From an uncultured Actinomycetes bacterium (GTDB lineage Bacteria > Actinomycetota > Actinomycetes > Mycobacteriales > Mycobacteriaceae), in the NCBI GenBank assembly GCA_903911165.1, contig CAIWCQ010000071.1, positions 1 to 17,937 of the forward strand: DNA of 17,937 nucleotides. Reading direction: 5' to 3'. The position numbers and the translations under genes are program-made. Below the pieces are notes generated by a model. That model did no database searches and was not told the origin of the DNA. It saw nothing but the letters and a program-made list of their open reading frames with translations. Within the stretch, counting starts at the first letter, position 1. Every line of letters begins with the position of its first letter. Shown in pieces: positions 1,226 through 16,744 of this stretch.

Positions 1226-1245
1226 TAGGTGACCAATGTCCCTGA
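1226..1245. promoter_or_regulatory. Candidate DosR/DevR box
   Basis: TAGGTGACCAATGTCCCTGA matches the published DosR consensus TTSGGGACTWWAGTCCCSAA at 14 of 20 positions. The half-site cores are GTGAC and GTCCC, one mismatch from GGGAC/GTCCC, with the correct 4-nt spacing. Its centre lies about 43 bp upstream of the start site expected from the -10 hexamer at 1267-1272, the usual position for DosR activation. A poorer 11/20 match abuts it at 1205-1224, which could be a secondary site. The box lies between divergent otsB (ATG 1151) and usp (ATG 1326) and could serve both. Match counts were made by eye. Confidence 0.6.
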
Positions 1246-1325: not shown

Positions 1326-2216
1326 ATGGCAACCGCGGCAAACACTCAACCGATCACGGTCGGCGTGGACGGTTCGGCGGTGTCACAGGTGGCCGTCGAC
1401 TGGGCTGCCCGGGCCGCCCTACTGCGCGGAGCTCCGCTCAAGGTCGTCCATGTCCTCAACCCCCCAGTCGTGACGGCATTCCCGGAAGTGCCGATGCCGG
1501 CGGGCTACCTGCAGTGGCAGGAGGACGAGGGCCGCAGAGTGCTCGCCGCTGCCGTCAAGATGGCTGAGGAGGCCGCCCATCTGCTGGGCGCCCCGGCGAT
1601 CGAGGTCACCGGTGAAATGGTCGCCGGAAGCTCGGTGCCGGTACTCGCCGAGGAGTCCAATCGGGCACAGTTGATCGTGGTGGGCTGCCGCGGACGCGGC
1701 GCATTGGCTCGCGGGCTGTTGGGCTCGGTCAGCACCGGTCTCGTTCACCACGCGCACTGCCCGGTAGCGATCATCCATGACGAGGACCCGTTGATGCCCC
1801 ATCCTTCGTTGGCTTCGGTGGTGGTGGGAGTGGACGGCTCACCGGCATCCGAGCGCGCCGTGGCGATCGCCTTCGAGGAAGCATCGTTGCGCGGCGTCGA
1901 CCTGGTGGCCGTGCATGCCTGGAGCGATACCGGGGTCTTGGAGTTCCCCGGGGCGGACTGGTCGGAGTTGCGGACCAGGGCCGAGGAGACCCTCAGTGAG
2001 CGGTTGGCAGGTTGGGGAGAGCGTTATCCGGACGTCCTGGTGCGCCGCATCGTCGTGGCCGACCGCCCCGCCCACCAACTACTCGAGCAGGCCGCGACGG
2101 CCCAACTTCTGGTGGTCGGCAGTCACGGCCGGGGCGGCTTCGCCGGCATGGTGCTGGGTTCGGTGAGCACCTCGGTGATCCACGGCGCCCAAATGCCGGT
2201 GATCGTCGCGCGCTAA
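1326..2216 (+). CDS. Tandem-domain universal stress protein (Rv2623/Rv2005c type)
   Basis: A 296-residue protein of two fused Usp domains (about 8-150 and 162-296), the usual length for mycobacterial tandem Usps such as Rv2623. Both halves keep the ATP-binding pattern: VGVDGS with D15 and D170, and G-x2-G-x9-GS at 120-134 and 265-279. ATP binding by both domains is therefore likely. In M. tuberculosis, proteins of this kind belong to the DosR dormancy regulon, and Rv2623 slows growth in an ATP-dependent way; the same role here is inferred. The start is well supported by GGAGGA (1315-1320), 5 nt before ATG 1326. A DosR-box candidate and a -10 hexamer lie upstream. The gene meets the membrane protein gene tail to tail, with the stop codons overlapping. 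No signal peptide is seen. Confidence 0.93.
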   Translation: MATAANTQPITVGVDGSAVSQVAVDWAARAALLRGAPLKVVHVLNPPVVTAFPEVPMPAGYLQWQEDEGRRVLAAAVKMAEEAAHLLGAPAIEVTGEMVAGSSVPVLAEESNRAQLIVVGCRGRGALARGLLGSVSTGLVHHAHCPVAIIHDEDPLMPHPSLASVVVGVDGSPASERAVAIAFEEASLRGVDLVAVHAWSDTGVLEFPGADWSELRTRAEETLSERLAGWGERYPDVLVRRIVVADRPAHQLLEQAATAQLLVVGSHGRGGFAGMVLGSVSTSVIHGAQMPVIVAR

Positions 2217-2599
2217 CTGCGCGTCGTGATCTCCCGTTTGCGCGTCGCGCCCCAGAGTCCTACCGCGATCCCTATCACCGCACCGCCGAGACCGATCACG
2301 CGCTGTGATCGCTTCATCTCGTGGTGCACACCCACACCGCCCAGCAGATCGGCACCGTCAGCGCCCGCGGATGCGAGGAACCATCCTCGGGTGTCGTTGC
2401 CGCGCAGCGCGGCTGCGGTGAGCAGTCCGCCGATCAGGGCGTCGCGGTAGCCCATTGAGCGCAGCAACAGTCGTGCGGTCGGGGCCGGTTCATCAGGATC
2501 GCCCCAGAGTCGGTTGGCCCGGACGGGGTCGATGAGAAATGAGACGCCTGATGCGAGCCGGATGCCGCCGGCAATGAGCGCGGCACGGTCGACCGTCAT
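2213..2599 (-). CDS. Small hydrophobic membrane protein, last gene of the sensor operon
   Basis: 128 residues; I do not recognise the family with confidence. Hydrophobic stretches lie near residues 6-24 (AALIAGGIRLASG), 51-67 (YRDALIGGLLTAAAL) and 100-118 (VIGLGGAVIGIAVGLWGA). They are separated by a charged loop with WGDPDEPAP and a Gly/Asp-rich stretch, and the C-terminus is basic (RKREITTR). This suggests three short membrane segments or hairpins. ATG 2599 was chosen because a longer start at 2662 would overlap the kinase gene by about 40 nt. With ATG 2599 the gap to the kinase stop (2622) is 22 nt. The ribosome binding site is weak, so translation may depend on the upstream gene. Its place suggests a link to the two-component system or to the stress response, but no function can be assigned. 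Confidence 0.7.
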   Translation of the reverse strand: MTVDRAALIAGGIRLASGVSFLIDPVRANRLWGDPDEPAPTARLLLRSMGYRDALIGGLLTAAALRGNDTRGWFLASAGADGADLLGGVGVHHEMKRSQRVIGLGGAVIGIAVGLWGATRKREITTRS

Positions 2600-2621
2600 G
2601 GTTTTCAGCCTAACGCCGCGA

Positions 2622-4445
2622 TCAGACCAGCGGAGCCCACCAGTGCAGGAGTGTTCCGCCACCCGGCGCCTCGGTGATGGTCAAATGTCCGTCGACCTCC
2701 TCGGCGCGGACGCGGAGATTGGTCAGCCCACTGGGCGTCACGATCGCGGGCATGCCGCACCCGTCGTCAAGCACCTCGATGCTGAAGTCGTCCTCGACCC
2801 GCACGGTAACGGTGAGCGCGGTAGCGCCCGCGTGCCGCACCACATTGCTGACTGCTTCGCGCACCACCGCCTCGGCATGGTCGGCGAGTGGCGGCTCTAC
2901 CACCGAAAGCGGGCCGATGAACTGCAGGGTGGTACGAAGTCCAGATCCGGAGAACGCCGCGATCGCCTGATCGAGTCGTTGGCGCAGTCGGGTGGTTCCC
3001 TGGGATCCGCCGTGCAGGTCGAAGATCGTCGTTCGAATTTCCTGGATCACGCCCTGCAACTCATCGACGACATCGTCCAGACGCGTCCGCACCTGCGGCG
3101 ACCCGACACTCTGGCTGGCGCCCTGCAGCGACAGGCCGGCAGCGAACAGCCGCTGGATGACGTGGTCGTGCAGGTCGCGCGCAATCCGTTCGCGATCGGC
3201 GATCACGTCGAGTTCGCGCATCCGGCGCTGGGTGTTGGCCAACTGCCAGGCCAGCGTCGCCTGGTCAGTGAAAGTCGCCATGATCTGCAACTGGTCGTCG
3301 GTGAACTCCGGGGCACCTCGACGCTTCTGGACCACCACGACGCCGGCAACGGTCTCGGTCGTTCGCAGCGGCAGCACCATTGCCGGGCCCGCGCCGGGAA
3401 TCGGCGGCACACCGGTGAGCGCCGGCAGCAGCCGAGGCGTTCGATCGGTCAGGACAGCCCCGAAGATGCTGACCGGCAGACCGGTCGGCGCGGGGTCTGC
3501 GCCGGTGCCTGCCGGACCCGCCGACGCGACCACCACCAGTTCGTCCACCTCGGACGCGGCTACCGCGGTGTTGTTGGGCACGGCCACCAGCACCGCATCC
3601 GCCTGGGTCAACCGCAACGCCGAATCGGCGATGAGCTGGAATACCCGGGCCGGTTCGTCGCCGCCCAACAGTTCGGTGGCGATATCACGGGTGGCTTCGA
3701 TCCAGGTCAGGCGTTCGCGGGACTGCTCGTAGAGCCGGGCGTTATCGGTCGCGATTCCGGCGAGCAGGGTCTCATTTCTCTCCCGCTCGATGGTGCGGCC
3801 CAATTGAGTGCTGGCCTTGGCTATCAGGCTCAGCAGGGCGTCATCTTCGGGCATCGGGTGGGCGCCGAAGAATTCCAGCGACCCCACAACCTCGGATCTG
3901 ACCAGAATCGGGGTGCTAAACGCCATCCGCATCCCTGACCGCAGGGCGCTGTCCTTGCGCAGAAAGTTGTCGCATATAGCCAGGTCGTCAAACCAGACCG
4001 GTGCGCCTGATTCCCAAACCTGACCCGGCAGGCCCACCCCGGGGGTGAATTCGAGTTCCGCTGTGGCGGAGCGCAATTCGGAGATATCCAGGCCTGGGCC
4101 GTGATGCCAGATTCCGGTCGGCCGCATCCGGCGGTCAGCACCTTCGCCGCTGATGATGTAGGCGTGCGCCGCGGGCCACCCGGTGAAGTGGCAGATGTAC
4201 TTCAGGGCGGAAGCAAGCACCTCGGAGACCGAATCGGACTGGTTGGCCATGATGGTGATAGTGAAGAGGACCTCGAGATCGCGTTGCTTCTGGTAGAGGT
4301 CGCGCAGTCCGCGTTCGGCGATGTCCTCCGCCTCGTGACGGATCTTCCGCTCCCGCTCCAACCGGCGGGCGAGCAGTTTGTTCTCGGCTGTCAGTTCGGC
4401 GACCAGACCCGCTGGGCTGCGAACCTTTTCGCGTTTCGGAGCCAT
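2622..4445 (-). CDS. DevS/DosT-type histidine kinase with a replaced sensory input
   Basis: 607 residues, apparently soluble, with no membrane segment. Order: coiled coil (about 15-60), GAF domain 1 (about 62-222), GAF domain 2 (about 245-402), HisKA_3 (about 415-480) and HATPase_c (about 520-605). From about residue 249 onward it closely resembles M. tuberculosis DevS, including RDIATELL, the RRMRELDV linker, DLHDHVIQRLF with phospho-acceptor H426, the N-box around N534 and DDGCG at 560-564. The kinase should therefore be active and should phosphorylate the DevR-type regulator of the same operon. GAF 1 is not DevS GAF-A: its GWPAAHAY, GVGLPGQVWESG and GSLEFFG motifs are of the type found in phytochrome-like PAS/GAF kinases. 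I could not align the DevS haem ligand H149, so haem binding is doubtful. ATG 4445 follows AGGGCGGGA and is 7 nt past the H-NOX stop, which suggests tight co-expression with the likely sensor partner. Confidence 0.92.
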   Translation of the reverse strand: MAPKREKVRSPAGLVAELTAENKLLARRLERERKIRHEAEDIAERGLRDLYQKQRDLEVLFTITIMANQSDSVSEVLASALKYICHFTGWPAAHAYIISGEGADRRMRPTGIWHHGPGLDISELRSATAELEFTPGVGLPGQVWESGAPVWFDDLAICDNFLRKDSALRSGMRMAFSTPILVRSEVVGSLEFFGAHPMPEDDALLSLIAKASTQLGRTIERERNETLLAGIATDNARLYEQSRERLTWIEATRDIATELLGGDEPARVFQLIADSALRLTQADAVLVAVPNNTAVAASEVDELVVVASAGPAGTGADPAPTGLPVSIFGAVLTDRTPRLLPALTGVPPIPGAGPAMVLPLRTTETVAGVVVVQKRRGAPEFTDDQLQIMATFTDQATLAWQLANTQRRMRELDVIADRERIARDLHDHVIQRLFAAGLSLQGASQSVGSPQVRTRLDDVVDELQGVIQEIRTTIFDLHGGSQGTTRLRQRLDQAIAAFSGSGLRTTLQFIGPLSVVEPPLADHAEAVVREAVSNVVRHAGATALTVTVRVEDDFSIEVLDDGCGMPAIVTPSGLTNLRVRAEEVDGHLTITEAPGGGTLLHWWAPLV

Positions 4446-4452
4446 TCCCGCC

Positions 4453-4989
4453 CTAGGCTTTTGTCACGGCGATCAGGCAACTGTCCGCGCCATCGTGCAT
4501 GCATTCCCGGTGTTGCACCACCAGTGCCTCACCGTAGTGGTCGCCGGCGCCGAGGATGAAGCCGTGGGCGAGGTCGCAAAGCTGGCGCGGCGAGCGGTAG
4601 CCAATCGTCAGTGACCCATCCGGCGGCGAGGTGAACGCGAAATGGGGACAGTAGGCGCCGGAATAGAGTTTGCGCACCTCGGGGTGGATGACGTCGTTGA
4701 GCGACAGCAGGAACGGCATCGTCTTCTGATGTGTGGTGAAAAACTCGGGCCAGCGTTTCGCCATACCGGGTATCGCCCGCTGTCCGAACCATCGGAGCAC
4801 CTCGCCCTCCGGCAGCGAGAGTTTGGCTGCGGCGGCCGACACCAGTGCCATGATTTCCGCATCGTCGTAGCTGCCGAGCGAGGTGTAGACGCCGTCCAGT
4901 CCGGCCGCATCGAGCAGTTCGTCCCACGTGGGTTCGCCGTAGGCGTCAACCACCACGTTTTCGAGCAGGTGGAAGATGATGCCCTTCAT
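4453..4989 (-). CDS. Stand-alone H-NOX (haem-NO-binding, HNOB) sensor protein
   Basis: 178 residues, the normal length for a bacterial H-NOX. It starts MKGIIFHLLE, typical of the family. The proximal haem ligand is H102 in LNDVIHPEV, and the haem-propionate motif YRSPR gives Y131, S133 and R135, the same numbers as in the Thermoanaerobacter protein. Position 140, the distal Tyr of O2-binding H-NOX, is Leu, so a preference for NO over O2 is inferred. C138, H160, C163 and C171 have the spacing (22, 3, 8) of the zinc-binding C139/H161/C164/C172 of Vibrio cholerae H-NOX, a site linked to redox sensing. Bacterial H-NOX proteins usually control a neighbouring histidine kinase or cyclic-di-GMP enzyme; here the partner would be the kinase 7 nt downstream. 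GGAGG sits 4 nt before ATG 4989. The gap to devR is 27 nt. Confidence 0.93.
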   Translation of the reverse strand: MKGIIFHLLENVVVDAYGEPTWDELLDAAGLDGVYTSLGSYDDAEIMALVSAAAAKLSLPEGEVLRWFGQRAIPGMAKRWPEFFTTHQKTMPFLLSLNDVIHPEVRKLYSGAYCPHFAFTSPPDGSLTIGYRSPRQLCDLAHGFILGAGDHYGEALVVQHRECMHDGADSCLIAVTKA

Positions 4990-5016
4990 GCGGCCTCCGG
5001 AACCCGGTCCACCGAA

Positions 5017-5664
5017 TCAATTCTCCCGCGTTCGTTGTTGTTCAAGTTTGGAGACGAAAACCGCCGCCTGGGTGCGACGTTCCATGCCGAGTTTGGCCAG
5101 CAGTCGAGACACATAGTTCTTGACCGTTTTCTCGGCCAGGAACATCCGGGCGGCAATCTGCCTGTTGGTCAGGCCTTCGCCGAGCAGATTCAACAGCACG
5201 CGTTCCTGGTCGGTGAGCGCCGAGAGCGGATCTGAGCTTTCGGCGGCACCGCGCAACTGGGCCATCAACGCTGCGGCCGCGCGGTTGTCCAGTAGGGAGC
5301 GTCCGGCGCCGACGTCCTTGATGGCCTTCGCCAGTTCCATACCCTTGATGTCCTTGACCACGTAACCGCTGGCGCCGGCCAGGATCGCGTCAAGCATCGC
5401 TTCATCGGAGGTAAACGAGGTCAGCATCAGACACCGGAGTTCCGGCATTTTCGACAATAGGTCGCGGCACAGTTCGATGCCATTGCCATCGGGCAGGCGA
5501 ACGTCGAGCACCGCGACGTCCGGGCGCAGTGCGGGGATCTGGGCCATCGCTTGGGCCACCGAGCCTGCCTCGCCGATCACGTCGACTTCGGGGTCGGCGC
5601 TGAGCAGGTCGATCAGGCCCCTGCGCACGACCTCGTGGTCGTCAACCAGAAAGACCGTGACCAT
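5017..5664 (-). CDS. devR: DevR/DosR-family response regulator
   Basis: 215 residues: a receiver domain (about 1-120), a linker, and a LuxR/NarL-type helix-turn-helix domain (about 147-212). It begins [16 protein letters not shown] and matches M. tuberculosis DosR almost without gaps. The acidic pair D8/D9, phospho-acceptor D54, T82 and K104 are present. The DNA-contact residues of DosR, K179, K182 and N183, sit at the same positions, so the same 20-bp box should be recognised. T198, a PknH target in M. tuberculosis, is kept, while T205 is Ser. The C-terminal tail ([10 protein letters not shown]) differs. The ATG at 5664 follows AGGG by about 7 nt. It lies between the Usp gene (29 nt) and H-NOX (27 nt). 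Whether this is the only DevR of the genome or a second copy cannot be told from this window. Confidence 0.95.
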
Positions 5665-5693
5665 GGACTAACCCTAGCGCGCGGGCGGCGCCG

Positions 5694-6527
5694 TCACAGT
5701 AGGCGTTGGCGATCTACGACCAGGATTGTGCAGTTGGTGTCATTCAACGCGGTCTGTCCCAGCGGTCCCAGTAACTCGCCGACGCCGGTGCTGTTCGGTG
5801 CGCCGACCACCACGATGTCGATGTTCGCAGCATGCGTAGACAGGTAGTTCAGTGGGCTGCCGTGGATGGCGACCGGGCGCGCATCGAGATCGGGATAGAG
5901 ATGTTTCCACTGCGACAGCCGCCGGTCCAGCTGGGCGCGCACGAGGCGGTTGCCGTCACCCACCGCGTGCGAGTCGTGGACGTCGGTATAGCGCGACTCC
6001 CAGGCGCCCAGCACGCGCAACGGCGCGTTGCGTAGTCGGGCTTCTGCCACACCGAACTGCAGCACCGCGGCACTGTCCGGGGTGTCGTCCAACTCCACCA
6101 CCACCCAGCCCGGGTTGGCGGGGTCCGGCCGGCCCGGGTCGCGTACCACCGCCACCGGGCAGCGCGCGGAGGTGACCAGTGCCTGTGCCGTGGAGCCGAC
6201 GCGGTCGCTATCGAAATGTTTGACGCCCACCGCCCCGACGCAGATCATCATCGCGTTTCCGGTGGCCGCCAGCAGGGTGGGGACCGGTGCGCCGTCAGCG
6301 ACGTGCGTTTCGATCCGGACCGACCGTCCGCTTGCCCCGACGGCCGCGGCGGCGGCGCGTACGGCCATATCCGCCTCGTCTCGCTCGCCGGTGGCGGCCG
6401 CGGCCACCAGCCGAAGTGGCACATCTCGGCTGGTGGCTTCCTCAATGGCCCAGAGCGCGGCGTCCACCGCGTTCCGGGATCCGTCGATGCCGACAACTAC
6501 CGAAGCCGGGGTGAAATCTTCGGACAT
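5694..6527 (-). CDS. Universal stress protein like Rv3134c, first gene of the sensor operon
   Basis: 277 residues in two Usp domains. The first (about 8-130) keeps VVGIDGS with D15 and G-x2-G-x9-GS at 98-112, so ATP binding is likely. The second (about 140-275) is degenerate: VVVELDD replaces VGVDGS and the glycine motif is broken (VGAPNSTGVGELLGPLG), so it probably does not bind ATP. M. tuberculosis Rv3134c has a similar intact/degenerate layout and is co-transcribed with devR-devS; the same order appears here. ATG 6527 is preferred because AGGAG lies 6 nt before it. GTG 6530 directly upstream would leave only 3 nt. No DosR box as good as the one at 1226 was found within 150 bp upstream. A perfect hairpin lies 70-107 nt before the start. 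Confidence 0.92.
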   Translation of the reverse strand: MSEDFTPASVVVGIDGSRNAVDAALWAIEEATSRDVPLRLVAAAATGERDEADMAVRAAAAAVGASGRSVRIETHVADGAPVPTLLAATGNAMMICVGAVGVKHFDSDRVGSTAQALVTSARCPVAVVRDPGRPDPANPGWVVVELDDTPDSAAVLQFGVAEARLRNAPLRVLGAWESRYTDVHDSHAVGDGNRLVRAQLDRRLSQWKHLYPDLDARPVAIHGSPLNYLSTHAANIDIVVVGAPNSTGVGELLGPLGQTALNDTNCTILVVDRQRLL

Positions 6528-6596
6528 CACGTGCTCCTATCGCCGGACTGGTTGATGTCGACGAGTCTCAGTCTGCTCCAGGGGTAACACGGAAGG

Positions 6597-6634
6597 CCCG
6601 TGCCGCCGGGGAGTCGGTTGCCCGGCGGCACGGG
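6597..6634. repeat. Perfect 14-bp inverted repeat (strong hairpin)
   Basis: CCCGTGCCGCCGGG (6597-6610), a 10-nt loop, then CCCGGCGGCACGGG (6621-6634). All 14 pairs match and 12 of them are G-C. No U-tract follows on either strand, so if it terminates transcription it would be of the tail-less type proposed for mycobacteria. Its place is odd, because it lies upstream of two divergent genes rather than after one. It could form in the leader RNA of the Usp operon, end a short non-coding RNA, or insulate the two promoters. Confidence 0.75.
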
Positions 6635-6707
6635 TCTGAGTGGGTTATCGCGGTGCCGTCGGGGGGTGTTACGGCGTCTGACGATCCGTGTGGATTTGAG
6701 AAATTGG

Positions 6708-6731
6708 AAAACCTACTCAAAAGTAGGTTTT
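6708..6731. promoter_or_regulatory. AT-rich 24-bp palindrome: operator or bidirectional terminator
   Basis: AAAACCTACT (6708-6717), CAAA, AGTAGGTTTT (6722-6731): ten perfect pairs around a 4-nt centre. It is strikingly AT-rich for this genome. Ending in TTTT on either strand, it could be a weak bidirectional intrinsic terminator. The symmetry and size also fit an operator for a dimeric regulator. FasR, the TetR-type activator of mycobacterial fas, is one candidate, but I do not recall its exact site and cannot match it. A related inverted pair, TACTCA (6745-6750) and TGAGTA (6760-6765), follows nearby. Confidence 0.5.
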
Positions 6732-7149: not shown

Positions 7150-10100
7150 GTGACGATCCACGAGCACGACAGTTTGCGCAGTGATGATGCCGACCGCACC
7201 AGCGTGCAGGCACTCGTGGACCGGCTCAACGCCGGCGAGCCGTACGCCGTGGCTTTCGGTGGCCAGGGCAACAGTGCGTGGTTGTCGAACCTCGAAGAAC
7301 TCGTCACGATGGCCGGGATCGAGTCGGAGCTGGCCACCGTGGTCGGCGAGGCGGAACTGCTGCTGGAACCGGTCGCGGACGAACTCGTCGTGGTGCGGCC
7401 CATCGGCTTCGAGCCGCTGCGCTGGGTGCGTCAGATCGCTGCCGAGGAGCCAGCGCCCTCCACGCGGCACCTGACGTCGGCGGCGGTGTCGCTGCCCGGT
7501 GTGCTGCTGAGCCAGATCGCGGCGATACGCGCTTTGTATCGGCAAGGGCTGGATCTCACCGGGGCACCGCCGGTGGCGGTGGCCGGCCATTCCCAGGGCG
7601 TGCTTGCCGTCGAGGCGCTCAAAGCCGCCGGTGCGCGTGACGTGGAACTGCTCGCCCTGGCGCAACTGATCGGCGCCGCTGGAACTTTGGTGGCCCGGCG
7701 TCGCGGCATCGTCGCTCTTGGTGAACGACCTCCGATGGTCTCGGTCACCAACGCTGATCCGGAGCGCATCGGTGCGCTACTCGCCGAGTTCGCCACCGAC
7801 GTGCGGACGGTGGAACCCCCGGTGTGCTCGATCCGCAACGGGCGTCGCTCGGTCGTGATCACCGGCACGCCCGAGCAGCTGTCGCGCTTCGAACTGTATT
7901 GCGAGCAGATCGCCGAGACCGAGGCCGCCGAGCGGAAGAACAAACTGCGCGGCGGCGCCGCCTTCTCGCCCAATTTCGACCCGGTTGCGGTAGAGGTCGG
8001 CTTCCACACGCCGCGACTGGCCGACGGGGTTGACCTCGTGGCGCGGTGGGCGGGTGTGGTGGGCCTCGACGTTGAATTGGCGCGCGCGATGACCGACGCG
8101 ATCCTGGTGCAGCCGGTCGACTGGGTCGAGGCCGTGACCGGCCTCTCTGACGCCGGCGCCCGGTGGATCCTGGACCTCGGGCCCGGCGACATCCTTACCC
8201 GGGTGACTGCACCGGTGATCCGCGGCCTGGGTGTGGGCATTGTGGCGGCCGCAACTCGCGGCGGCCAGCGCAACCTGTTCACCGTGGGTGCCGCGCCGGA
8301 GGTGGGCAAGCCGTGGTCGAGTTATGCGCCGTCGGTGATCAGTCTTCCGGACGGTTCAGTCAAGTTATCCACCAAGTTCACCCGGATCACCGGCCGCTCA
8401 CCGATCCTGCTGGCCGGCATGACGCCGACCACGGTCGACGCGAAAATCGTCGCCGCCGCGACCAACGCCGGGCACTGGGCCGAGCTCGCCGGCGGCGGTC
8501 AGGTCACCGAGCCGATCTTCGAGCGGCGGATGACGGAGGTGAGCGCGCTGCTCGAGCCCGGCCGGGCAATTCAGTTCAACGCTCTTTTCCTGGATCCTTA
8601 CCTGTGGAAGCTTCAGGTCGGCGGTAAACGACTGGTCCAAAAGGCCCGCGCGGCAGGCGCCCCGATCGACGGTCTGGTGATCAGCGCCGGAATACCTGAA
8701 CTCGAGGAAGCCGTCGAACTCATCGATGAGCTTCATGGCGTCGGCATCGCGCACGTGTGCTTCAAGCCCGGAACCGTCGAGCAGATCCGTGCGGTGATCC
8801 GGATCGCCGCCGAGGCACCCGCCAAGAGCGTCATCGCCCACATCGAGGGTGGCCGTGCCGGGGGGCACCACTCCTGGGAGGATCTCGACGATCTCTTGCT
8901 GACCACCTACTCCGAATTGCGCTCGCAACCCAACATCACCGTGTGCGTCGGCGGCGGGGTCGGCACGCCAGAGCGCGCCGCCGACTACCTGACCGGCCGT
9001 TGGTCACTGTCCTACGGCTACCCGATGATGCCGGTCGACGGCATCCTGCTGGGCACCGCCACGATGGCCTGCCTGGAAGCCACTACCTCACGATCGGTCA
9101 AGCAGTTGCTGGTCGATACGGTTGGCACCGATCAGTGGGTCGGTGCCGGAAAAGCCAACGGCGGCATGGCGTCCGGGCGTAGTCAACTGGGCGCCGATAT
9201 TCACGAGATCGACAACTCCGCATCGCGTTGCGGCCGGTTGCTCGACGACGTCGCCGGTGATGCCGAGGCGGTGGCGGCGCGGCGCGGGGAGATCATCGCC
9301 GCGATGGCGCTCACTGCCAAGCCCTACTTCGGTGATGTCGCCGACATGACGTACCTGCAGTGGCTGCAGCGCTACGTCGAACTGGCGATGGGTGATCGCG
9401 GCACCTGGCTTGACGTCACCTGGCGGGACCGCTTCACGGCAATGCTGCAGCGCACCGAGGCCCGACTTCATCCGCTGGACAGCGGTCCGATCGAGACGCT
9501 CTTCGACGCCCCCGAGTTAACCGACGAGCCTGCCCGGGCGATCGCGGCTCTGGTGGAGCGCTACTCCGATGCCGCCACCGTGCTGCTGCATCCGGCCGAT
9601 GTTCCGTTCTTCGTCCAGGAGTGCAAGACCCCGGGCAAACCGGTGAACTTCGTGCCGGTGATCGACAAAGACGTCCGCCGATGGTGGCGCAGCGACTCGC
9701 TGTGGCAGGCCCACGACGAGCATTACACCGCCGATCAGGTCTGCATCATCCCGGGCATCGCTGCCGTTGCGGGTATCACCCGGATCGACGAACCGGTGGG
9801 CGAGTTACTCGACCGCTTCGAGAAGGCCGCCGTCGATGAGGTGCTCGCGGACGGCGGTCACCCCCAGCCGGTCGCCTCGAGGCTTCAGGTGCTCCCCGAC
9901 GCCACCGGTCCACTCGGCATCGTCCTGGACTCTCCCGACGTGCTGTGGGCCGGCCGCACAGCAATCAATCCCGTGCATCGTTTGGCGCCGCCGTCGCAGT
10001 GGCAGGTGCACGACAGCCGTTCCGCGACATGTCATTCCACCGGCGCGCGACTCGAAGCGGTCGCGCCGGACCGGGTCGTTCTGAGTGTCCCGTTGTCAGG

Positions 10101-13100
10101 AACGTGGATCGACATTACGTTCACTCTGCCGGCCACCGTTGTCGACGGCGGGGCACCGGTGGTGCTCACCACCGATGCCGCCGCCGCGATGCGGGCCGTT
10201 CTGGCCGTTGCCGCCGGCGCCGACGGGCCGGACGCATTGCCCGGCCTCGTCGGCGGTTCCACCACCGTCACGGTCGACTGGGATCCCGAACGGGTTGCTG
10301 ACCACACCGGTGTCACCGCGACCTTCGGCGCTCCGTTGGCTCCGACCCTGACGACGGTTCCCGATGCACTGGTCGGCCGCTGCTGGCCCGCGGTATTCGC
10401 CGCGATCGGCGGTGCGGCCACCGAAGACGGTTTTCCCGTCATCGAGGGCCTGCTGAGCCTGGTGCACCTCGATCATGCCGCTCGGTTGCTCAAGCCCCTG
10501 CCGCGGCAGCGGACCCAGCTGACGGTCACCGCAACGGCTTCGGTGGCAGTCGATAGCGAGGTCGGCCGAGTGGTGCCGGTCACCGTCAACGTCATCGACA
10601 GCGCCGGTGTGGTTCTCGCGGTTCTGGAGGAGCGCTTCGCCATCCGTGGCCGCACCGGGCCGCTCGAGCTGACCGATCCGGTGCGTGCCGGGGGAGCGGT
10701 GTCGGAGAATGCCACCGACACCCCGCGTCGGCGTCGCCGCGACGTCACGATTACCGCGCCGGTGGACATGCGGCCGTTCGCGCAGGTCTCAGGTGACCAC
10801 AATCCCATCCATACCGACCGGACCGCCGCGCTGCTGGCCGGTCTTGACACCCCGATCGTGCACGGCATGTGGCTCTCGGCAGCCGCCCAGCACGCGGTTG
10901 CCGCCACCGACGGCAACCCGGTCCCGCCCGGCAGGCTGGTCGGGTGGACCGCCCGCTTCCTGGGCATGGTGAAACCCGGTGACGAGATCGATCTTCGGGT
11001 AGACCGCGTCGGAATCGACTTGGGCGCAGAGGTTTTGGAGGTGACGGCGAAAGTCGGTGGCGAGTTGGTGATGGCGGCGACCGCCCGGCTGGCCGCCCCG
11101 AAAACCGCCTATGCCTTCCCGGGCCAGGGTATCCAGCACAAGGGCATGGGTATGGAGGTCCGTGCCCGCTCGAAGGCGGCACGCAAGGTGTGGGATCGCG
11201 CCGACAAGTTCACCCGGGAAACCCTCGGATTTTCGGTGCTGCACGTGGTCCGCGACAACCCGACGAGTCTGATCGCTGCCGGCGTGCACTATCAGCATCC
11301 CGAGGGTGTGTTGTATCTGACGCAGTTCACCCAGGTCGCCATGGCGACCGTAGCCGCCGCCCAGGTCGCCGAGATGCGCGAGCAGGGCGCCTTTGTTGAG
11401 GGTGCGATCGCCTGCGGGCACTCGGTGGGCGAGTACACCGCAGTCGCCTGTGTCACCGGGGTCTTCGAACTCGAGGCACTAATCGAGGTGGTGTTCCATC
11501 GCGGCAGCAAGATGCACGACATCGTGCCGCGCGACGAGCAGGGACGCTCCAATTACCGGTTGGCGGCCATCCGGCCGTCGCAGATCGACATCCACGACGC
11601 CGACGTGAAGACGTTCGTCGCCGACATTGCCCAGCGCGCCGGGGAGTTCCTTCAGATCGTCAACTTCAACCTGCGCGGCGCGCAGTATGCGATCGCCGGC
11701 ACCGTACGTGGACTGGAGGCATTGGAAGAAGAAGTCGAACGGCGGCGGGAGATCACCGGGGGCAAGCGTGCCTACATTCTGGTTCCCGGTATCGACGTGC
11801 CGTTCCACTCCGATGTGCTGCGCATCGGAGTGGACGAGTTCCGCCGCTCACTGGAGCGGATCCTGCCCCATGACGCCGATGCTTCCGCGCTGATCGGGCG
11901 CTACATCCCCAACCTGGTACCCCGGCTGTTCAGCCTGGACCGCGACTTCATCGCCGAGATCCGCGACCTGGTGCCCGCCGAGTCGCTCGATGAGATCCTC
12001 GCCGACTACGACACCTGGATCACCCAGCGCCCGGGTGAAGTGGGCCGACGGGTCATCATCGAACTGCTGGCCTGGCAGTTCGCCAGCCCGGTGCGCTGGA
12101 TCGAAACCCAGGACCTGTTGTTCACCGAGGAGGCCGCCGGCGGATTGGGCGTCGAGCGCTTCGTCGAGATCGGCGTGAAGTCCGCCCCGACGGTGGCCGG
12201 ACTGGCCAACAACACCCTCAAACTCCCGGAGTACGCCTACAGCACCGTGCAGGTACTCAACGTCGAACGCGACGCCGCGGTGTTGTTCGCCAATGATTCC
12301 GATCCCGAGCCGGAGCCTGAGTCCGAGGCGGCCGAAGAGTCTGCGCCGACGGCCACTGAGACAGCGCCCAGTGCTGCACTCCCAGCGGCCGTTCCCACCC
12401 CGACGGCTACCCCCGGCGCCGCTCGACCCGACGACATCGGATTCGGTGCCGCTGACGCAACGTGCGCGTTGATCGCGCTGTCGGCCAAGATGCGCCTCGA
12501 TCAGATTGAACCTCTGGACTCGATCGAGTCGATCACCGACGGGGCATCCTCACGACGCAACCAACTGCTCGTCGACCTGGGTTCGGAATTGGACCTCGGC
12601 GCGATCGACGGCGCCGCCGACGCCGACCTCACCGCTCTTCGTGGCCAGGTGAATAAACTGGCACGTACCTACAAGCCGTTCGGCCCGGTGCTGTCCGACG
12701 CCGTCAACGATTCACTGCGCAGCGTCCTCGGACCGTCAGGTAAGCGGCCGGGCGCGATTGCCGAGAGGGTCACCAAGACATGGGAACTCGGCGGGGGCTG
12801 GGCCAAACACGTCACCGTCGAACTCATGCTGGGCACCCGGGAGGGCACCAGCGTTCGGGGTGGGCCTCTCGGAGGGTTGCACGACGGCGCCCTTACGGAC
12901 GCCGCCGCGGTTGACCGGGCCATCGACGCGGCAGTGGCCGCCGTGGCGTCCCGAAACGGTGTTGCGGTGGCACTGCCGTCGGCCGGCGGCGCCAGTGGCG
13001 GCGGAGTGGTCGACTCGGCCGCATTGGATGAGTTCGCCGAGACGGTGACCGGTCCCACCGGCGTGCTGGCTTCGGCCGCCCGGCTGGTACTGGGTCAACT

Positions 13101-16100
13101 CGGACTGGACAACCCGGTGAGCGCCCTCCCGGTAGCCACCGATGCCGAACTGATCGACTTGGTCACCAGTGAGCTCGGCTCGGAGTGGCCACGACTGGTC
13201 GCACCGGCATTCGACGCCCAAAAAGCTGTCCTGCTTGATGATCGGTGGGCCAGCGCCAGGGAGGACCTGGTCAAGCTGTGGCTTGCCGACGAGAACGACA
13301 TCAATGCGGATTGGGCGACGCTGTCGGAGAGTTTCGAAGGCACCGGACACGTGGTGGCCACCCAGGCGGATTGGTGGCGCGGACGCGCGTTAGCGCAGGG
13401 CCGTCTTGTCCACGCTGCCCTGTATGCCCGGATAGCGGCCGGTGCGGAGAACCCCAGCGCCGGACGTTACGCCGAAGACGTTGCGGTCGTCACCGGTGCG
13501 TCCAAGGGGTCTATCGCGGCATCGGTGGTCGCCCAGCTGCTCCGCGGCGGCGCCACCGTCATCGCCTCCACCTCCTCACTCAATGACGACCGCCTTTCGT
13601 TCTACAAGTCGCTCTATCGCGACAGCGCCCGCTTCGGCGCCGCGCTGTGGGTAGTGCCGGCAAACATGGCGTCCTACGCCGATATCGACGCACTGGTGTC
13701 GTGGGTCGGCAGCGACCAGACCGAAAACCTTGGCCCCCAGGCCATCCACATCAAGGACGCCCAGACTCCGACCATGCTGTTCCCGTTCGCTGCGCCGCGG
13801 GTCGCCGGTGATCTCTCCGAGGCTGGGTCGCGCTCAGAGATGGAGATGAAGGTTCTGCTGTGGGCCGTCGAACGGCTCGTCGGCGGACTTTCGGCGATCG
13901 GTTCCGAACGCGACATCGCCTCGCGGCTGCACGTGGTGCTGCCCGGCTCGCCCAACCGGGGCATGTTCGGTGGCGACGGCGCCTACGGCGAATCCAAGTC
14001 CGCGCTCGACGCGGTGGTGACGCGGTGGGGTGCGGAGTCCTCCTGGGCGGCGCGGGTCACCCTTGCGCACGCCCTGATCGGCTGGACCAAGGGCACCGGA
14101 CTGATGGGTCACAACGACGCGATCGTCGATGCGGTGGAGGCCGCCGGTGTGACGACCTACACCACTGCCGAGATGGCGGCCATGCTGCTGGATCTGTGCA
14201 CACCTGACGCCAGGGTTGCCGCCGCCGCCGCCCCACTGCGGGCCGACCTCACCGGCGGCCTCGGTGATATCGAACTCGACATGGCCGAACTCGCCGCTCG
14301 GGCACGCGAGGAGACCACTGCGGCTGCCGGGGGCAGGGATGAGGACGGCCCGCCGTCGGGCACGATCGCCGCGTTGCCGTCACCTCCGCGCGGTTACCGC
14401 GCGGCGCCGCCGCCGGCCTGGGCCGCCCTCGACGTCGACCCCGCCGAGTTGGTGGTGATCGTGGGCGGCGCCGAATTGGGTCCCTATGGTTCGTCGCGCA
14501 CCCGGTACGAGATGGAGATCGACAACGAACTCTCAGCGGCCGGAGTGCTCGAATTAGCCTGGACAACCGGACTTCTCAAGTGGGAGGACGATCCCAAGCC
14601 GGGCTGGTACGACACCGCGACGGGCGCGATGGTGGACGAGTCCGAGATCGTCGAGAACTACCACGACGCTGTCGTGGCACGATGCGGCATCCGCGAATTC
14701 GCCGCCGATGGGGCGCTGAACGCCGATCACTCGACGGAGTTACTCGTCAGCGTGTTCCTCGATCGCGACTTCCAGTTCGTGGTGTCGACGGAGGCCGAGG
14801 CCCGGGCGTTCGCCGATGCCGACCCGGAGCACACCGTGGTGCGGCCGGTCGCAGACTCCGGTGACTGGGAGGTCATTCGCAAGGCGGGCACCGAGATCCG
14901 GGTGCCGCGCAAGGCGAAACTGTCCCGCACCGTGGGCGGCCAGATCCCCACCGGGTTCGACCCGACGGTCTGGGGTATCGGTGCCGACATGGTTGCGTCC
15001 GTAGACCGGGTGGCACTGTGGAACATGGTTGCCACCGTGGATGCCTTCCTGTCTTCCGGTTTCACCCCGGAGGAATTGATGCGGTGGGTTCATCCGAGCC
15101 TGGTGGCCAGTACGCAGGGCACCGGTATCGGCGGCTTGACCAGCATGCAGACCATGTTCCATGGCAACCTGCTGGGCAACGCAAAGCCTAACGACATCCT
15201 GCAGGAGGTATTGCCGAACGTCGTTGCCGCACATGTCATGCAGTCCTATATCGGCGGTTACGGTGCGATGGTTCACCCGGTGGGTGCCTGTGCCACCGCA
15301 GCGGTGTCGGTCGAGGAGGGCGTGGACAAGATCAGGCTCGGCAAGGCCGACCTGGTGGTCGCCGGTGGCTTCGACGACATGACCTCTGACGCCATCACCG
15401 GCTTCGGCGATATGGCGGCGACCGCCGACACCGCGATGATGCGCGCCAAAGGCATCAGCGATTCGAAGATCTCCCGCGCCAACGATCGGCGCAGGCTGGG
15501 CTTCCTGGAGGCTCAGGGCGGCGGCACGATCCTGCTGGCTCGCGGCGACCTCGCGTTGAAGATGGGCCTTCCGGTGCTCGCGGTGGTCGGCTACGCGCAG
15601 AGCTTCGCCGACGGAGTCCATACCTCGATCCCGGCGCCCGGCCTGGGTGCCCTCGGTGCCGGCCGGGGCGGCCGGGATTCGGCCCTGGCCCGGTCGCTGG
15701 CCCGGCTCGGGGTGGGTGCCGACGACGTCGCGGTGATCTCGAAGCACGACACTTCCACGCTGGCCAACGATCCCAACGAGACCGAACTGCATGAGCGTCT
15801 CGCCGACGCACTCGGCCGATCCGCCGGGGCGCCGCTGTTCGTGGTCTCACAAAAGACCCTCACCGGCCACGCCAAGGGTGGCGCGGCGGTGTTCCAGATG
15901 CTCGGCCTGTGCCAGATCTTGCGCGACGGCGTCATCCCGCCAAACCGCAGCCTCGATTGCGTTGACGACGAGTTGGCGGTCTCCGGCCACTTCGTCTGGC
16001 CGCGGGAGACGTTGCGGCTCGGCGACCGCTTCGGGCTCAAGGCGGGCCTGGTCACCAGTCTGGGGTTCGGCCACGTGTCGGGATTGATCGCACTGGTGCA

Positions 16101-16341
16101 TCCGCAGGCATTCCTGGCGACGCTGGATTCCGGGGAGCGTGAGGCCTATGAACGGCGGGCACGCGAACGGGTGCTGGCTGGACAGCGAAGGCTGGCCGAG
16201 GCGATCGCCGGCGGACGTCCGATGTATGAGAAGCCCGCCGATCGGCGCTTCGACCACGACCGTTCGGAGAAGGCGCAAGAAGCCACCATGCTTCTCGATC
16301 CTGCCTCGCGCCTCGGCGAGGGCGGGATCTACATCAGCTAA
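7150..16341 (+). CDS. fas: Type I fatty acid synthase (FAS-I), mycobacterial multidomain enzyme
   Basis: 3063 residues, against 3069 in M. tuberculosis. Makes C16-C18 and C24-C26 acyl-CoA de novo and so feeds phospholipid and mycolic acid synthesis; cytoplasmic, a homohexamer in the known family. Domains: acetyltransferase GHSQG (S148); FMN enoyl reductase from about 417, with SPILLAGMTP and GGRAGGHHSW (H573/H574); hot-dog dehydratase SGDHNPIHTD (D1216, H1221); malonyl/palmitoyl transferase GHSVGEY (S1425, H1553); a Glu/Pro/Ala linker (about 1718-1762); ACP with probable phosphopantetheine site S1800 in DGASS; ketoreductase TGASKGS (2115-2121) with Y2279 and K2283; ketosynthase C2714, H2866, K2902 and H2907. 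Every key residue is present, so the enzyme should be active. There is no C-terminal phosphopantetheinyl transferase domain as in fungi; acpS next door supplies it. The GTG start gives MTIHEHD, as in M. tuberculosis, with GAGGGAGA about 10 nt upstream. Confidence 0.98.
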   Translation: MTIHEHDSLRSDDADRTSVQALVDRLNAGEPYAVAFGGQGNSAWLSNLEELVTMAGIESELATVVGEAELLLEPVADELVVVRPIGFEPLRWVRQIAAEEPAPSTRHLTSAAVSLPGVLLSQIAAIRALYRQGLDLTGAPPVAVAGHSQGVLAVEALKAAGARDVELLALAQLIGAAGTLVARRRGIVALGERPPMVSVTNADPERIGALLAEFATDVRTVEPPVCSIRNGRRSVVITGTPEQLSRFELYCEQIAETEAAERKNKLRGGAAFSPNFDPVAVEVGFHTPRLADGVDLVARWAGVVGLDVELARAMTDAILVQPVDWVEAVTGLSDAGARWILDLGPGDILTRVTAPVIRGLGVGIVAAATRGGQRNLFTVGAAPEVGKPWSSYAPSVISLPDGSVKLSTKFTRITGRSPILLAGMTPTTVDAKIVAAATNAGHWAELAGGGQVTEPIFERRMTEVSALLEPGRAIQFNALFLDPYLWKLQVGGKRLVQKARAAGAPIDGLVISAGIPELEEAVELIDELHGVGIAHVCFKPGTVEQIRAVIRIAAEAPAKSVIAHIEGGRAGGHHSWEDLDDLLLTTYSELRSQPNITVCVGGGVGTPERAADYLTGRWSLSYGYPMMPVDGILLGTATMACLEATTSRSVKQLLVDTVGTDQWVGAGKANGGMASGRSQLGADIHEIDNSASRCGRLLDDVAGDAEAVAARRGEIIAAMALTAKPYFGDVADMTYLQWLQRYVELAMGDRGTWLDVTWRDRFTAMLQRTEARLHPLDSGPIETLFDAPELTDEPARAIAALVERYSDAATVLLHPADVPFFVQECKTPGKPVNFVPVIDKDVRRWWRSDSLWQAHDEHYTADQVCIIPGIAAVAGITRIDEPVGELLDRFEKAAVDEVLADGGHPQPVASRLQVLPDATGPLGIVLDSPDVLWAGRTAINPVHRLAPPSQWQVHDSRSATCHSTGARLEAVAPDRVVLSVPLSGTWIDITFTLPATVVDGGAPVVLTTDAAAAMRAVLAVAAGADGPDALPGLVGGSTTVTVDWDPERVADHTGVTATFGAPLAPTLTTVPDALVGRCWPAVFAAIGGAATEDGFPVIEGLLSLVHLDHAARLLKPLPRQRTQLTVTATASVAVDSEVGRVVPVTVNVIDSAGVVLAVLEERFAIRGRTGPLELTDPVRAGGAVSENATDTPRRRRRDVTITAPVDMRPFAQVSGDHNPIHTDRTAALLAGLDTPIVHGMWLSAAAQHAVAATDGNPVPPGRLVGWTARFLGMVKPGDEIDLRVDRVGIDLGAEVLEVTAKVGGELVMAATARLAAPKTAYAFPGQGIQHKGMGMEVRARSKAARKVWDRADKFTRETLGFSVLHVVRDNPTSLIAAGVHYQHPEGVLYLTQFTQVAMATVAAAQVAEMREQGAFVEGAIACGHSVGEYTAVACVTGVFELEALIEVVFHRGSKMHDIVPRDEQGRSNYRLAAIRPSQIDIHDADVKTFVADIAQRAGEFLQIVNFNLRGAQYAIAGTVRGLEALEEEVERRREITGGKRAYILVPGIDVPFHSDVLRIGVDEFRRSLERILPHDADASALIGRYIPNLVPRLFSLDRDFIAEIRDLVPAESLDEILADYDTWITQRPGEVGRRVIIELLAWQFASPVRWIETQDLLFTEEAAGGLGVERFVEIGVKSAPTVAGLANNTLKLPEYAYSTVQVLNVERDAAVLFANDSDPEPEPESEAAEESAPTATETAPSAALPAAVPTPTATPGAARPDDIGFGAADATCALIALSAKMRLDQIEPLDSIESITDGASSRRNQLLVDLGSELDLGAIDGAADADLTALRGQVNKLARTYKPFGPVLSDAVNDSLRSVLGPSGKRPGAIAERVTKTWELGGGWAKHVTVELMLGTREGTSVRGGPLGGLHDGALTDAAAVDRAIDAAVAAVASRNGVAVALPSAGGASGGGVVDSAALDEFAETVTGPTGVLASAARLVLGQLGLDNPVSALPVATDAELIDLVTSELGSEWPRLVAPAFDAQKAVLLDDRWASAREDLVKLWLADENDINADWATLSESFEGTGHVVATQADWWRGRALAQGRLVHAALYARIAAGAENPSAGRYAEDVAVVTGASKGSIAASVVAQLLRGGATVIASTSSLNDDRLSFYKSLYRDSARFGAALWVVPANMASYADIDALVSWVGSDQTENLGPQAIHIKDAQTPTMLFPFAAPRVAGDLSEAGSRSEMEMKVLLWAVERLVGGLSAIGSERDIASRLHVVLPGSPNRGMFGGDGAYGESKSALDAVVTRWGAESSWAARVTLAHALIGWTKGTGLMGHNDAIVDAVEAAGVTTYTTAEMAAMLLDLCTPDARVAAAAAPLRADLTGGLGDIELDMAELAARAREETTAAAGGRDEDGPPSGTIAALPSPPRGYRAAPPPAWAALDVDPAELVVIVGGAELGPYGSSRTRYEMEIDNELSAAGVLELAWTTGLLKWEDDPKPGWYDTATGAMVDESEIVENYHDAVVARCGIREFAADGALNADHSTELLVSVFLDRDFQFVVSTEAEARAFADADPEHTVVRPVADSGDWEVIRKAGTEIRVPRKAKLSRTVGGQIPTGFDPTVWGIGADMVASVDRVALWNMVATVDAFLSSGFTPEELMRWVHPSLVASTQGTGIGGLTSMQTMFHGNLLGNAKPNDILQEVLPNVVAAHVMQSYIGGYGAMVHPVGACATAAVSVEEGVDKIRLGKADLVVAGGFDDMTSDAITGFGDMAATADTAMMRAKGISDSKISRANDRRRLGFLEAQGGGTILLARGDLALKMGLPVLAVVGYAQSFADGVHTSIPAPGLGALGAGRGGRDSALARSLARLGVGADDVAVISKHDTSTLANDPNETELHERLADALGRSAGAPLFVVSQKTLTGHAKGGAAVFQMLGLCQILRDGVIPPNRSLDCVDDELAVSGHFVWPRETLRLGDRFGLKAGLVTSLGFGHVSGLIALVHPQAFLATLDSGEREAYERRARERVLAGQRRLAEAIAGGRPMYEKPADRRFDHDRSEKAQEATMLLDPASRLGEGGIYIS

Positions 16342-16351
16342 GGTTCGCGGC

Positions 16352-16744
16352 GTGGCGATAGTGGGAATCGGGATCGATCTGGTGTCCATCCCCGAGTTTG
16401 CCGAGCAGGTCGACCAGCCCGGCACGGTGTTCGCCGAGACGTTCACCCCGGGTGAGCGGCGCGACGCCGCCGACAAGAGTTCCCTCGCCGCGAGGCATCT
16501 GGCGGCGCGCTGGGCCGCCAAGGAGGCCGTCATCAAGGCGTGGTCGGGTTCCCGGTTCGCCCAGCGTCCGATGCTGACAGAGGCCATTTACCGCGACATC
16601 GAGGTGATCACCGATATGTGGGGCCGGCCGAAGGTTCGGCTGACCGGAGCGATTGCCGACCATCTCGCCGACGTGGTCATCCATGTGTCGCTGACCCATG
16701 AGGGCGATACCGCCGCCGCGGTTGCCATCCTCGAGACGCTCTAG
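16352..16744 (+). CDS. acpS: Holo-[acyl-carrier-protein] synthase AcpS
   Basis: Transfers 4'-phosphopantetheine from coenzyme A to a carrier-protein serine, here most likely S1800 of the FAS-I ACP domain. 130 residues, the same as M. tuberculosis AcpS. The Mg-binding residues are visible: D9 in GIGIDLV and E58 in WAAKEA (54-59), with catalytic K61 or K57 nearby. The C-terminal SLTHEGDTAAAVAI is typical. The GTG at 16352 was chosen because translation from it begins MAIVGIGIDLV, the family N-terminus. An upstream in-frame ATG at 16139 lies inside fas and would add 71 unrelated residues. The gap to the fas stop is 10 nt, so the two genes are probably co-transcribed, as fas-acpS is in other mycobacteria. 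Confidence 0.97.
   Translation: MAIVGIGIDLVSIPEFAEQVDQPGTVFAETFTPGERRDAADKSSLAARHLAARWAAKEAVIKAWSGSRFAQRPMLTEAIYRDIEVITDMWGRPKVRLTGAIADHLADVVIHVSLTHEGDTAAAVAILETL

Follow-up and report, generated by a model that had tools for sequence, protein, structure and literature searches.

A mycobacterial devRS operon with an H-NOX gene and an exchanged kinase sensor domain

Does an H-NOX gene lying between the regulator and the kinase of a DosR-type operon add a sensor to that system, or has the sensor of the kinase itself been exchanged? DosRS is the textbook gas-sensing switch of mycobacteria, and the way it works depends on the haem of the kinase DevS. The question is raised by a stretch of 17,937 nt (hereafter the window; contig CAIWCQ010000071.1, assembly GCA_903911165.1) from an uncultured member of the Mycobacteriaceae, the draft genome of which (G000) has 3.14 Mb in 524 contigs and a completeness of 97.6%. 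A sequence-only reading had described an operon in the order usp-devR-H-NOX-kinase-DUF4267, all on the minus strand, with gaps of 29, 27, 7 and 22 nt between the open reading frames (ORFs), and this was borne out by the ORF coordinates and by Pfam and PDB matches. Its sequence marks it as the devRS (dosRS) locus of mycobacteria, in which one sensor has taken the place of another. The four leading genes are:

5694..6530, minus strand: usp, an Rv3134c-like universal stress protein, the operon head (Pfam Usp, 1.7e-24); ATG at 6527, with an in-frame GTG at 6530
5017..5664, minus strand: devR response regulator, DosR orthologue (Pfam Response_reg and GerE; PDB 3c3w, E 2.4e-114)
4453..4989, minus strand: stand-alone H-NOX (Pfam HNOB, 5.7e-38, 130.8 bits against a cut-off of 25.5; best PDB match 4u99, 2.2e-35)
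2622..4445, minus strand: chimeric histidine kinase of 607 aa (Pfam GAF, HisKA_3, HATPase_c)

The PDB match of the regulator, M. tuberculosis DevR (3c3w), extends across residues 1-211. The kinase was divided as follows:

4239..4415, minus strand: residues 11-69, a long N-terminal helix and predicted coiled coil for H-NOX docking (AlphaFold2 (AF2) helix 11-69; docking putative)
3786..4235, minus strand: residues 71-220, replacement GAF without the haem His (Pfam GAF_2; no DevS/DosT GAF-A match)
3762..3770, minus strand: fusion joint at about residues 226-228, ...IERERNE then TLLAGIATDNARLYEQSR... (alignment with canonical DevS and H-NOX-partner proteins)
3195..3656, minus strand: DevS GAF-B, residues 264-417 (PDB 2vjw, 4.3e-31)
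2628..3194, minus strand: HisKA_3 (phospho-acceptor H426) and DevS ATPase domain (N534, G-box 560) (3zxo DevS, 1.2e-42)

In the PDB search, residues 264-606 of the kinase matched DevS GAF-B (2vjw, 4.3e-31) and the ATPase domains of DevS (3zxo, 1.2e-42) and DosT type (3zxq, 1.2e-36). HisKA_3 was matched by Pfam at 2e-13 and the key residues H426 and N534 are present, the DevS-derived part running from about residue 226 to 607 (GAF-B, HisKA_3, HATPase). The description of the protein as a DevS-type kinase therefore holds for the C-terminal ~380 residues but fails for residues 1-224, which found no DevS or DosT chain in the PDB even at E<=1. The DevS of a canonical relative (L094) matched DosT and DevS GAF-A at 1e-77 to 5e-63. 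Alignment places the joint of the window-type proteins at the last GAF-A helix: after the ..QLGRxIERER that closes the new N-terminus, DevS resumes at AGIAIDNARLYEQSR..WIEATRD.

According to PMC4082495, GAF-A is the haem domain of DevS and His149 the proximal ligand. The fate of this residue, scored as NHPPMRTFLG and close variants, was followed among the best 120 database relatives of the kinase. The chimeric architecture is shared by 51 of these, the window's own cluster counted in, and the other 69 are not of this type. None of the 47 chimeric rows covering the site has the haem His (Arg in 44, Gln in 2, Lys in 1; the remaining 4 rows are fragments), and all 67 canonical rows have it, 63 by pattern and 4 by inspection (HPPMGTF or HPPMQTF), with 2 further rows being fragments. 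The kinases taken from genomes gave the same division: 22/22 canonical with the haem His, 0/6 chimeric.

An AF2 model of the kinase showed a single helix (11-69) running into the first GAF, with a mean predicted local distance difference test score (pLDDT) of 81 and a predicted template modelling score (pTM) of 0.40; because of the latter, the modelled domain arrangement was kept out of the evidence. A Foldseek search with the model gave, among the 50 matches listed, DevS GAF-B and ATPase and otherwise generic tandem-GAF proteins. From the alignments, the kinase has lost the haem GAF-A with its proximal His and gained a coiled-coil and GAF N-terminus. The view implied earlier, that a sensor gene was simply added, was ruled out: the kinase's own sensor domain has been exchanged.

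Where does the replacement N-terminus come from? The same coiled-coil and GAF module opens proteins encoded beside H-NOX genes: GGDEF-EAL proteins in six Mycobacterium genomes (G146, G214, G288, G315, G331 and G342) and in Skermanella, Nitrobacter, Novosphingobium and Lichenibacterium, PAS-SpoIIE proteins in G257 and G394, a PAS protein cut by the contig end in G259, and a HisKA kinase in Paraconexibacter. The window's module is 58-62% identical to the N-termini of H-NOX-adjacent proteins from nine Mycobacterium genomes. When a database was searched with residues 14-223, 115 module-bearing proteins came up, counted by hand from their Pfam assignments as 50 DevS-type, 30 GGDEF/EAL, 14 SpoIIE, 20 HisKA and 1 PAS-HisKA_3.

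The linkage to H-NOX was quantified in a sample of 396 Mycobacterium-genus genomes, 22 of which contain HNOB. The module or its coiled coil was found in 15 genomes, all of them H-NOX-positive (15/22 against 0/374 negative genomes; Fisher 3e-22, for species that are not independent), and for 15 of the 16 module copies the distance to the end of an H-NOX domain is 64-110 nt. In G229 the H-NOX neighbour is a GAF-SpoIIE protein that has only residues 10-67, the coiled coil, in common with the window kinase, which suggests that the coiled coil is the likely docking element. By these comparisons, the new N-terminus of the kinase is a module that travels with H-NOX genes.

It could be proposed that the replacement GAF is the main sensor, of a small molecule or through a cofactor of its own, and that H-NOX is a secondary modulator or passenger. 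The GAF is indeed retained across all outputs of the 115 module proteins and, as DevS GAF-B is without a clear role either (PMC4082495), the roles of these GAF domains are open. Nevertheless, the absence of the module from all 374 H-NOX-negative genomes, and the G229 protein, which shares the coiled coil and not this GAF, make the proposal very unlikely.

Is the window's arrangement an isolated case? The search for H-NOX genes beside devR/devS homologues that had been suggested with the original reading found devR-H-NOX-kinase, in unchanged order, in five further mycobacterial genomes (G241, G300, G159, G444 and G307; in G307 the contig ends before usp). Canonical loci have usp-devR-devS and a convergent second usp, and in the chimeric loci H-NOX stands between devR and the kinase. 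An Rv3134c-like usp also heads the canonical loci L094, L095 and L096, and the convergent usp is found in 9 of 17 canonical loci (1.5-kb flanks); five of the six chimeric ones have it, entire or truncated. Among homologues bearing source names, several are from Mycobacterium or Mycolicibacterium, and the two nearest named contigs belong to metagenome-assembled genomes, Mycobacterium sp. LacPavin and Mycolicibacterium sp. SupBloom. Two contigs titled Bifidobacterium breve (L026, CAMCWJ010000075.1; L028, CAMDFY010000003.1) hold the mycobacterial chimeric locus, and their labels look wrong.

Each of G000, G241, G300, G159 and G307 gave one DevS-like match at E<=1e-20, as did G444, which contains L028, at E<=1e-10; for G000 the match stayed single at E<=1e-3. 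Nine other Mycobacterium genomes in which H-NOX stands beside another module partner (G146, G214, G257, G259, G288, G315, G331, G342 and G394) have a canonical DevS elsewhere. The devR-devS junction is interrupted in a different way in G256, where a VapB antitoxin gene (PF09957, 3.2e-18; L096:9802-10436), then a 151-aa frame without a Pfam match, lie between the two genes in antisense orientation, the devS there being canonical. In G229 (L097) a TetR-like gene takes the place of devR upstream of devS. The junction may be insertion-prone in this clade.

What would the H-NOX protein sense? Its residues were mapped by alignment to S. oneidensis H-NOX. His102 aligns to the proximal His103, a YxSxR motif is present at 131-135 (Y131, S133, R135), and C138, H160, C163 and C171 align to C139, H161, C164 and C172, the zinc ligands of the S. 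oneidensis protein (PMC7108781). The proximal His, YxSxR and the zinc pattern (three Cys with His or Gln as the fourth ligand) are kept in 25 of 25 aligned H-NOX sequences. At position 140 (R135+5) the window protein has Leu and not Tyr. Tyr140 in the distal pocket marks O2-binding H-NOX proteins. With Leu at this position, nitric oxide (NO) rather than O2 is the predicted ligand, and under the rule of absent Tyr140 the protein fits the NO-selective class. PMC8738867 places Mycobacteriaceae H-NOX proteins in its group 3 and mentions that reports from Gram-positive species are lacking. A second, more distant type of mycobacterial H-NOX, without the coiled-coil module, occurs at L098 (G171), L099 (G189) and L100 (G256); in G171 its gene comes after that of a PAS-hybrid kinase with Hpt.

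The conserved zinc site allows another assignment, in which the input is still H-NOX, its main function being that of a thiol/zinc redox sensor, so that the operon would report oxidants and not NO. The zinc-site pattern in all 25 sequences would fit, as would the finding that haem-free V. cholerae H-NOX inhibits its kinase once its cysteines are oxidised (PMC7108781). However, the proximal His and YxSxR are kept in the same 25 proteins, and the redox route is known from haem-free protein in vitro. We regard this assignment as unlikely.

The exchange of the devRS sensor in place, with H-NOX gating the kinase, is on balance the probable explanation and the best one overall. The simplest route would be that a contiguous segment, hnox together with the 5' portion of a partner gene, took the place of the 5' part of devS and brought H-NOX along; elsewhere, segments of this kind drive GGDEF-EAL or SpoIIE outputs. 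Sensing has very likely moved from the kinase haem to H-NOX, and an H-NOX input mechanism is strongly suggested by the architecture. H-NOX would bind NO on ferrous haem, while its zinc site may also answer thiol oxidation, and it would dock on the N-terminal coiled coil of the kinase. A changed contact would then be relayed via the GAF, the linker helix and GAF-B to the HisKA_3 helices, setting autophosphorylation and phosphotransfer to DevR, which would control at least the neighbouring usp.

The sign of the response can be proposed by analogy. In both S. oneidensis and V. cholerae the kinase is inhibited by its cognate H-NOX once NO is bound, and in V. cholerae by oxidised haem-free H-NOX as well (PMC7108781); the HNOB sensors tabulated in PMC8846402 are all listed as inhibiting with NO. 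If the chimera follows this custom, NO would probably inhibit the kinase and turn DevR phosphorylation off; judged from the HNOB partners, this has about an even chance of being correct. In the canonical system NO activates DosS. That kinase is active unligated or with CO and is inhibited by O2 (PMC13287260).

Several points weigh against this explanation. The sixteenth module copy, a coiled-coil-GAF-SpoIIE protein of G259, has no H-NOX on its 3.95-kb contig, the one HNOB of that genome being located on another contig, so this coiled coil does not always mean that an H-NOX is adjacent. Seven of the 22 H-NOX genomes carry H-NOX without the module, and the replacement GAF could bind a ligand of its own. 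The joints of the window-type and L028-type chimeras differ in the alignment. A second DevS was not found in the six chimeric genomes, but these are drafts (55-97.6% complete, with no figure for G444) and its absence is not proof. The earlier proposal that haem sensing had shifted to a stand-alone subunit gating the kinase is upheld as regards the loss of GAF-A and its His and the H-NOX linkage of the module, whereas the complex, ligand and sign stay predictions.

Did the exchange happen once or twice? A first tree of the DevS body was dropped because several cut-outs had retained the N-terminal module, which made the chimeras look like one clade. The tree was rebuilt from alignment columns with 28 rows and then with 70 (146 rows made non-redundant at 90%), P0164 and P0177 being left out as wanting in start motif or length. 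In the 70-row tree the 19 window-type chimeras form one clade and the two L028-type chimeras lie inside a canonical clade, with a Shimodaira-Hasegawa-like approximate likelihood ratio (SH-aLRT) support of 100. Since the joints differ, one clean transfer need not explain both types. These observations, with approximately unbiased (AU) tests of a single chimera clade giving p=0.016 on GAF-B and p=0.03 on H-NOX plus module (19 rows), favour an addition to the explanation above, namely that the swap occurred twice, in the window-type and L028-type lineages, with different DevS parents. The same test, however, gave p=0.056 on the whole DevS body, 0.25 on H-NOX alone (23 rows) and 0.06 on the module (19 rows). 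With 67 module rows, a choice from the 115 module proteins plus loci, p was 0.56 and the one-clade tree scored better; an early two-origin hint of the module tree was lost on this wider sampling. The kinase half gave p=1.5e-6, yet the chimera label needs six changes there, so the window-type rows split as well. In addition, the groups were named only after the trees were seen, and one swap with later recombination fits too. A double swap is accordingly a matter on which the evidence is evenly poised.

What does the operon control? DevR retains D8, D9, D54, T82, K104, K179, K182 and N183, which we take to be its phosphorylation and DNA-contact positions. Possible targets were sought around the locus, where the following lie downstream of the operon:

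1326..2216, plus strand: convergent two-domain usp, which also closes many canonical devRS loci (Pfam; synteny)
1229..1242, plus strand: DosR-like box GTGACCAATGTCCC, 84-97 nt before the convergent usp (one mismatch to GGGACNNNNGTCCC)

The DosR consensus TTSGGGACTWWAGTCCCSAA had no match in the window with up to three mismatches. The looser core GGGACNNNNGTCCC with up to two mismatches had 13, against 23.4 expected in shuffles, and as about 0.5 such sites are expected per 400 nt by chance, they prove little. Sites with at most one mismatch stand upstream of the convergent usp in three of nine distinct loci (the window, L028 and L061), for a background of 0.03 per 400 nt. Allowing two mismatches gives sites 57-107 nt upstream in seven of the nine (L102 and L095 being missed), which is weak alone. 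At the operon head no site with up to two mismatches was found within 400 nt upstream in seven of eight loci, and one weak site in L102.

The dormancy part of the proposal meets two further objections. Exact boxes, counted genome-wide on both strands, were not above the reversed-pattern control in the eight genomes scanned (boxes/control: G000 4/4, G241 3/8, G300 4/4, G159 3/5, G307 1/5, G444 1/10, G256 10/14, G146 12/9), and no regulon was inferred for this reason. The perfect box of G000 (L116) stands before a frame of 126 aa that has no Pfam match, and the three other usp loci scanned in that genome (L134, L136 and L138) have no site with fewer than two mismatches. Secondly, hspX (Hsp20/alpha-crystallin) is a hallmark DosR target, and Hsp20 (PF00011) was not found in the chimeric genomes G000, G159, G241, G300 and G307, nor in G444. 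It is present in 373 of the 396 genus genomes and absent from the five chimeric ones among them (Fisher 4e-7), small draft genomes being a confounder. It is also missing from the H-NOX-positive relatives G229, G257, G259 and G394, which have a canonical DevS, so its loss is not chimera-specific. The term "dormancy switch" keeps the DevR residues and the box before the convergent usp in its favour, but Hsp20 is missing in 6/6 genomes and boxes are not in excess; as a label for the operon it is weak, and less secure than the sensor exchange.

A bolder synthesis would make the gas input of DosR a replaceable cartridge: GAF-A would have been removed twice independently and an H-NOX docking module plugged in along with the H-NOX itself; a switch inhibited by O2 and activated by NO and CO would thereby have become an NO-off one whose DevR regulon is without the alpha-crystallin dormancy core. 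Taken whole, this seems rather unlikely.

The last gene of the operon varies among the loci:

2213..2599, minus strand: DUF4267 small protein, a patchy operon member (Pfam 2.2e-9 on the longer ORF 2213-2662)

It was found in the window, L028 (G444) and G307 and is fragmentary in G241; in G300 and G159 the corresponding position gave no match. On the other side, a divergently oriented 3063-aa ORF adjoining the operon (7150-16341) resembles a type I fatty acid synthase and is followed by an AcpS-like ORF (16139-16744), both named by eye. Between the operon head and the synthase-like ORF lie two inverted repeats, GGCCCGTGCCGCCGGG...CCCGGCGGCACGGGTC and AAAACCTACT...AGTAGGTTTT, at 6595-6636 and 6708-6731, neither flagged by a terminator scan.

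The sequence-only reading knew of no description of such an arrangement, and searches of the open full-text literature agree with this: no description of H-NOX within a DevS/DosS/DosR locus was found among the titles and abstract openings listed, with subscription papers and preprints lying outside the scope, nor in the available parts of PMC8738867, PMC7108781, PMC13287260, PMC1592074 and PMC8846402. As judged from the comparisons above, the finding is real, recurrent and more than a gene insertion, an exchange of the DosR haem sensor for an H-NOX plug-in, and in a group of mycobacteria with small genomes a well-known dormancy switch seems to have been connected to another sensor. With the kinase body and its DNA-binding partner kept and the haem sensor swapped for a separate protein, nature has here carried out a domain-exchange experiment. 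The coiled coil common to several kinds of output is marked out as the likely H-NOX docking place, the GAF-B and kinase of DevS are predicted to accept control by an input other than haem, and for a Gram-positive lineage a specific candidate partner of H-NOX is at hand.

How does the locus compare with known systems? With the DevRS/DosRS-DosT system of mycobacteria (Rv3134c-devR-devS) it shares an orthologous locus, DevR, GAF-B, HisKA_3, HATPase and the upstream usp. It differs in having the coiled coil and GAF in place of the haem GAF-A and a separate, inserted H-NOX gene, and the chimeric genomes gave no DosT or second DevS and no Hsp20. With H-NOX/HnoK of Shewanella oneidensis and Vibrio cholerae it shares a stand-alone zinc-type H-NOX paired with a histidine kinase, but it combines a DevS-class kinase (HisKA_3) and a NarL-type DNA-binding regulator, whereas the S. 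oneidensis route ends in cyclic di-GMP (PMC7108781). HaCE-type H-NOX-associated GGDEF-EAL proteins, of which M26 and M. anyangense are examples among the six Mycobacterium genomes, have the same N-terminal coiled-coil and GAF input beside H-NOX. Their output is cyclic di-GMP turnover, while that of the window's operon is a two-component system.

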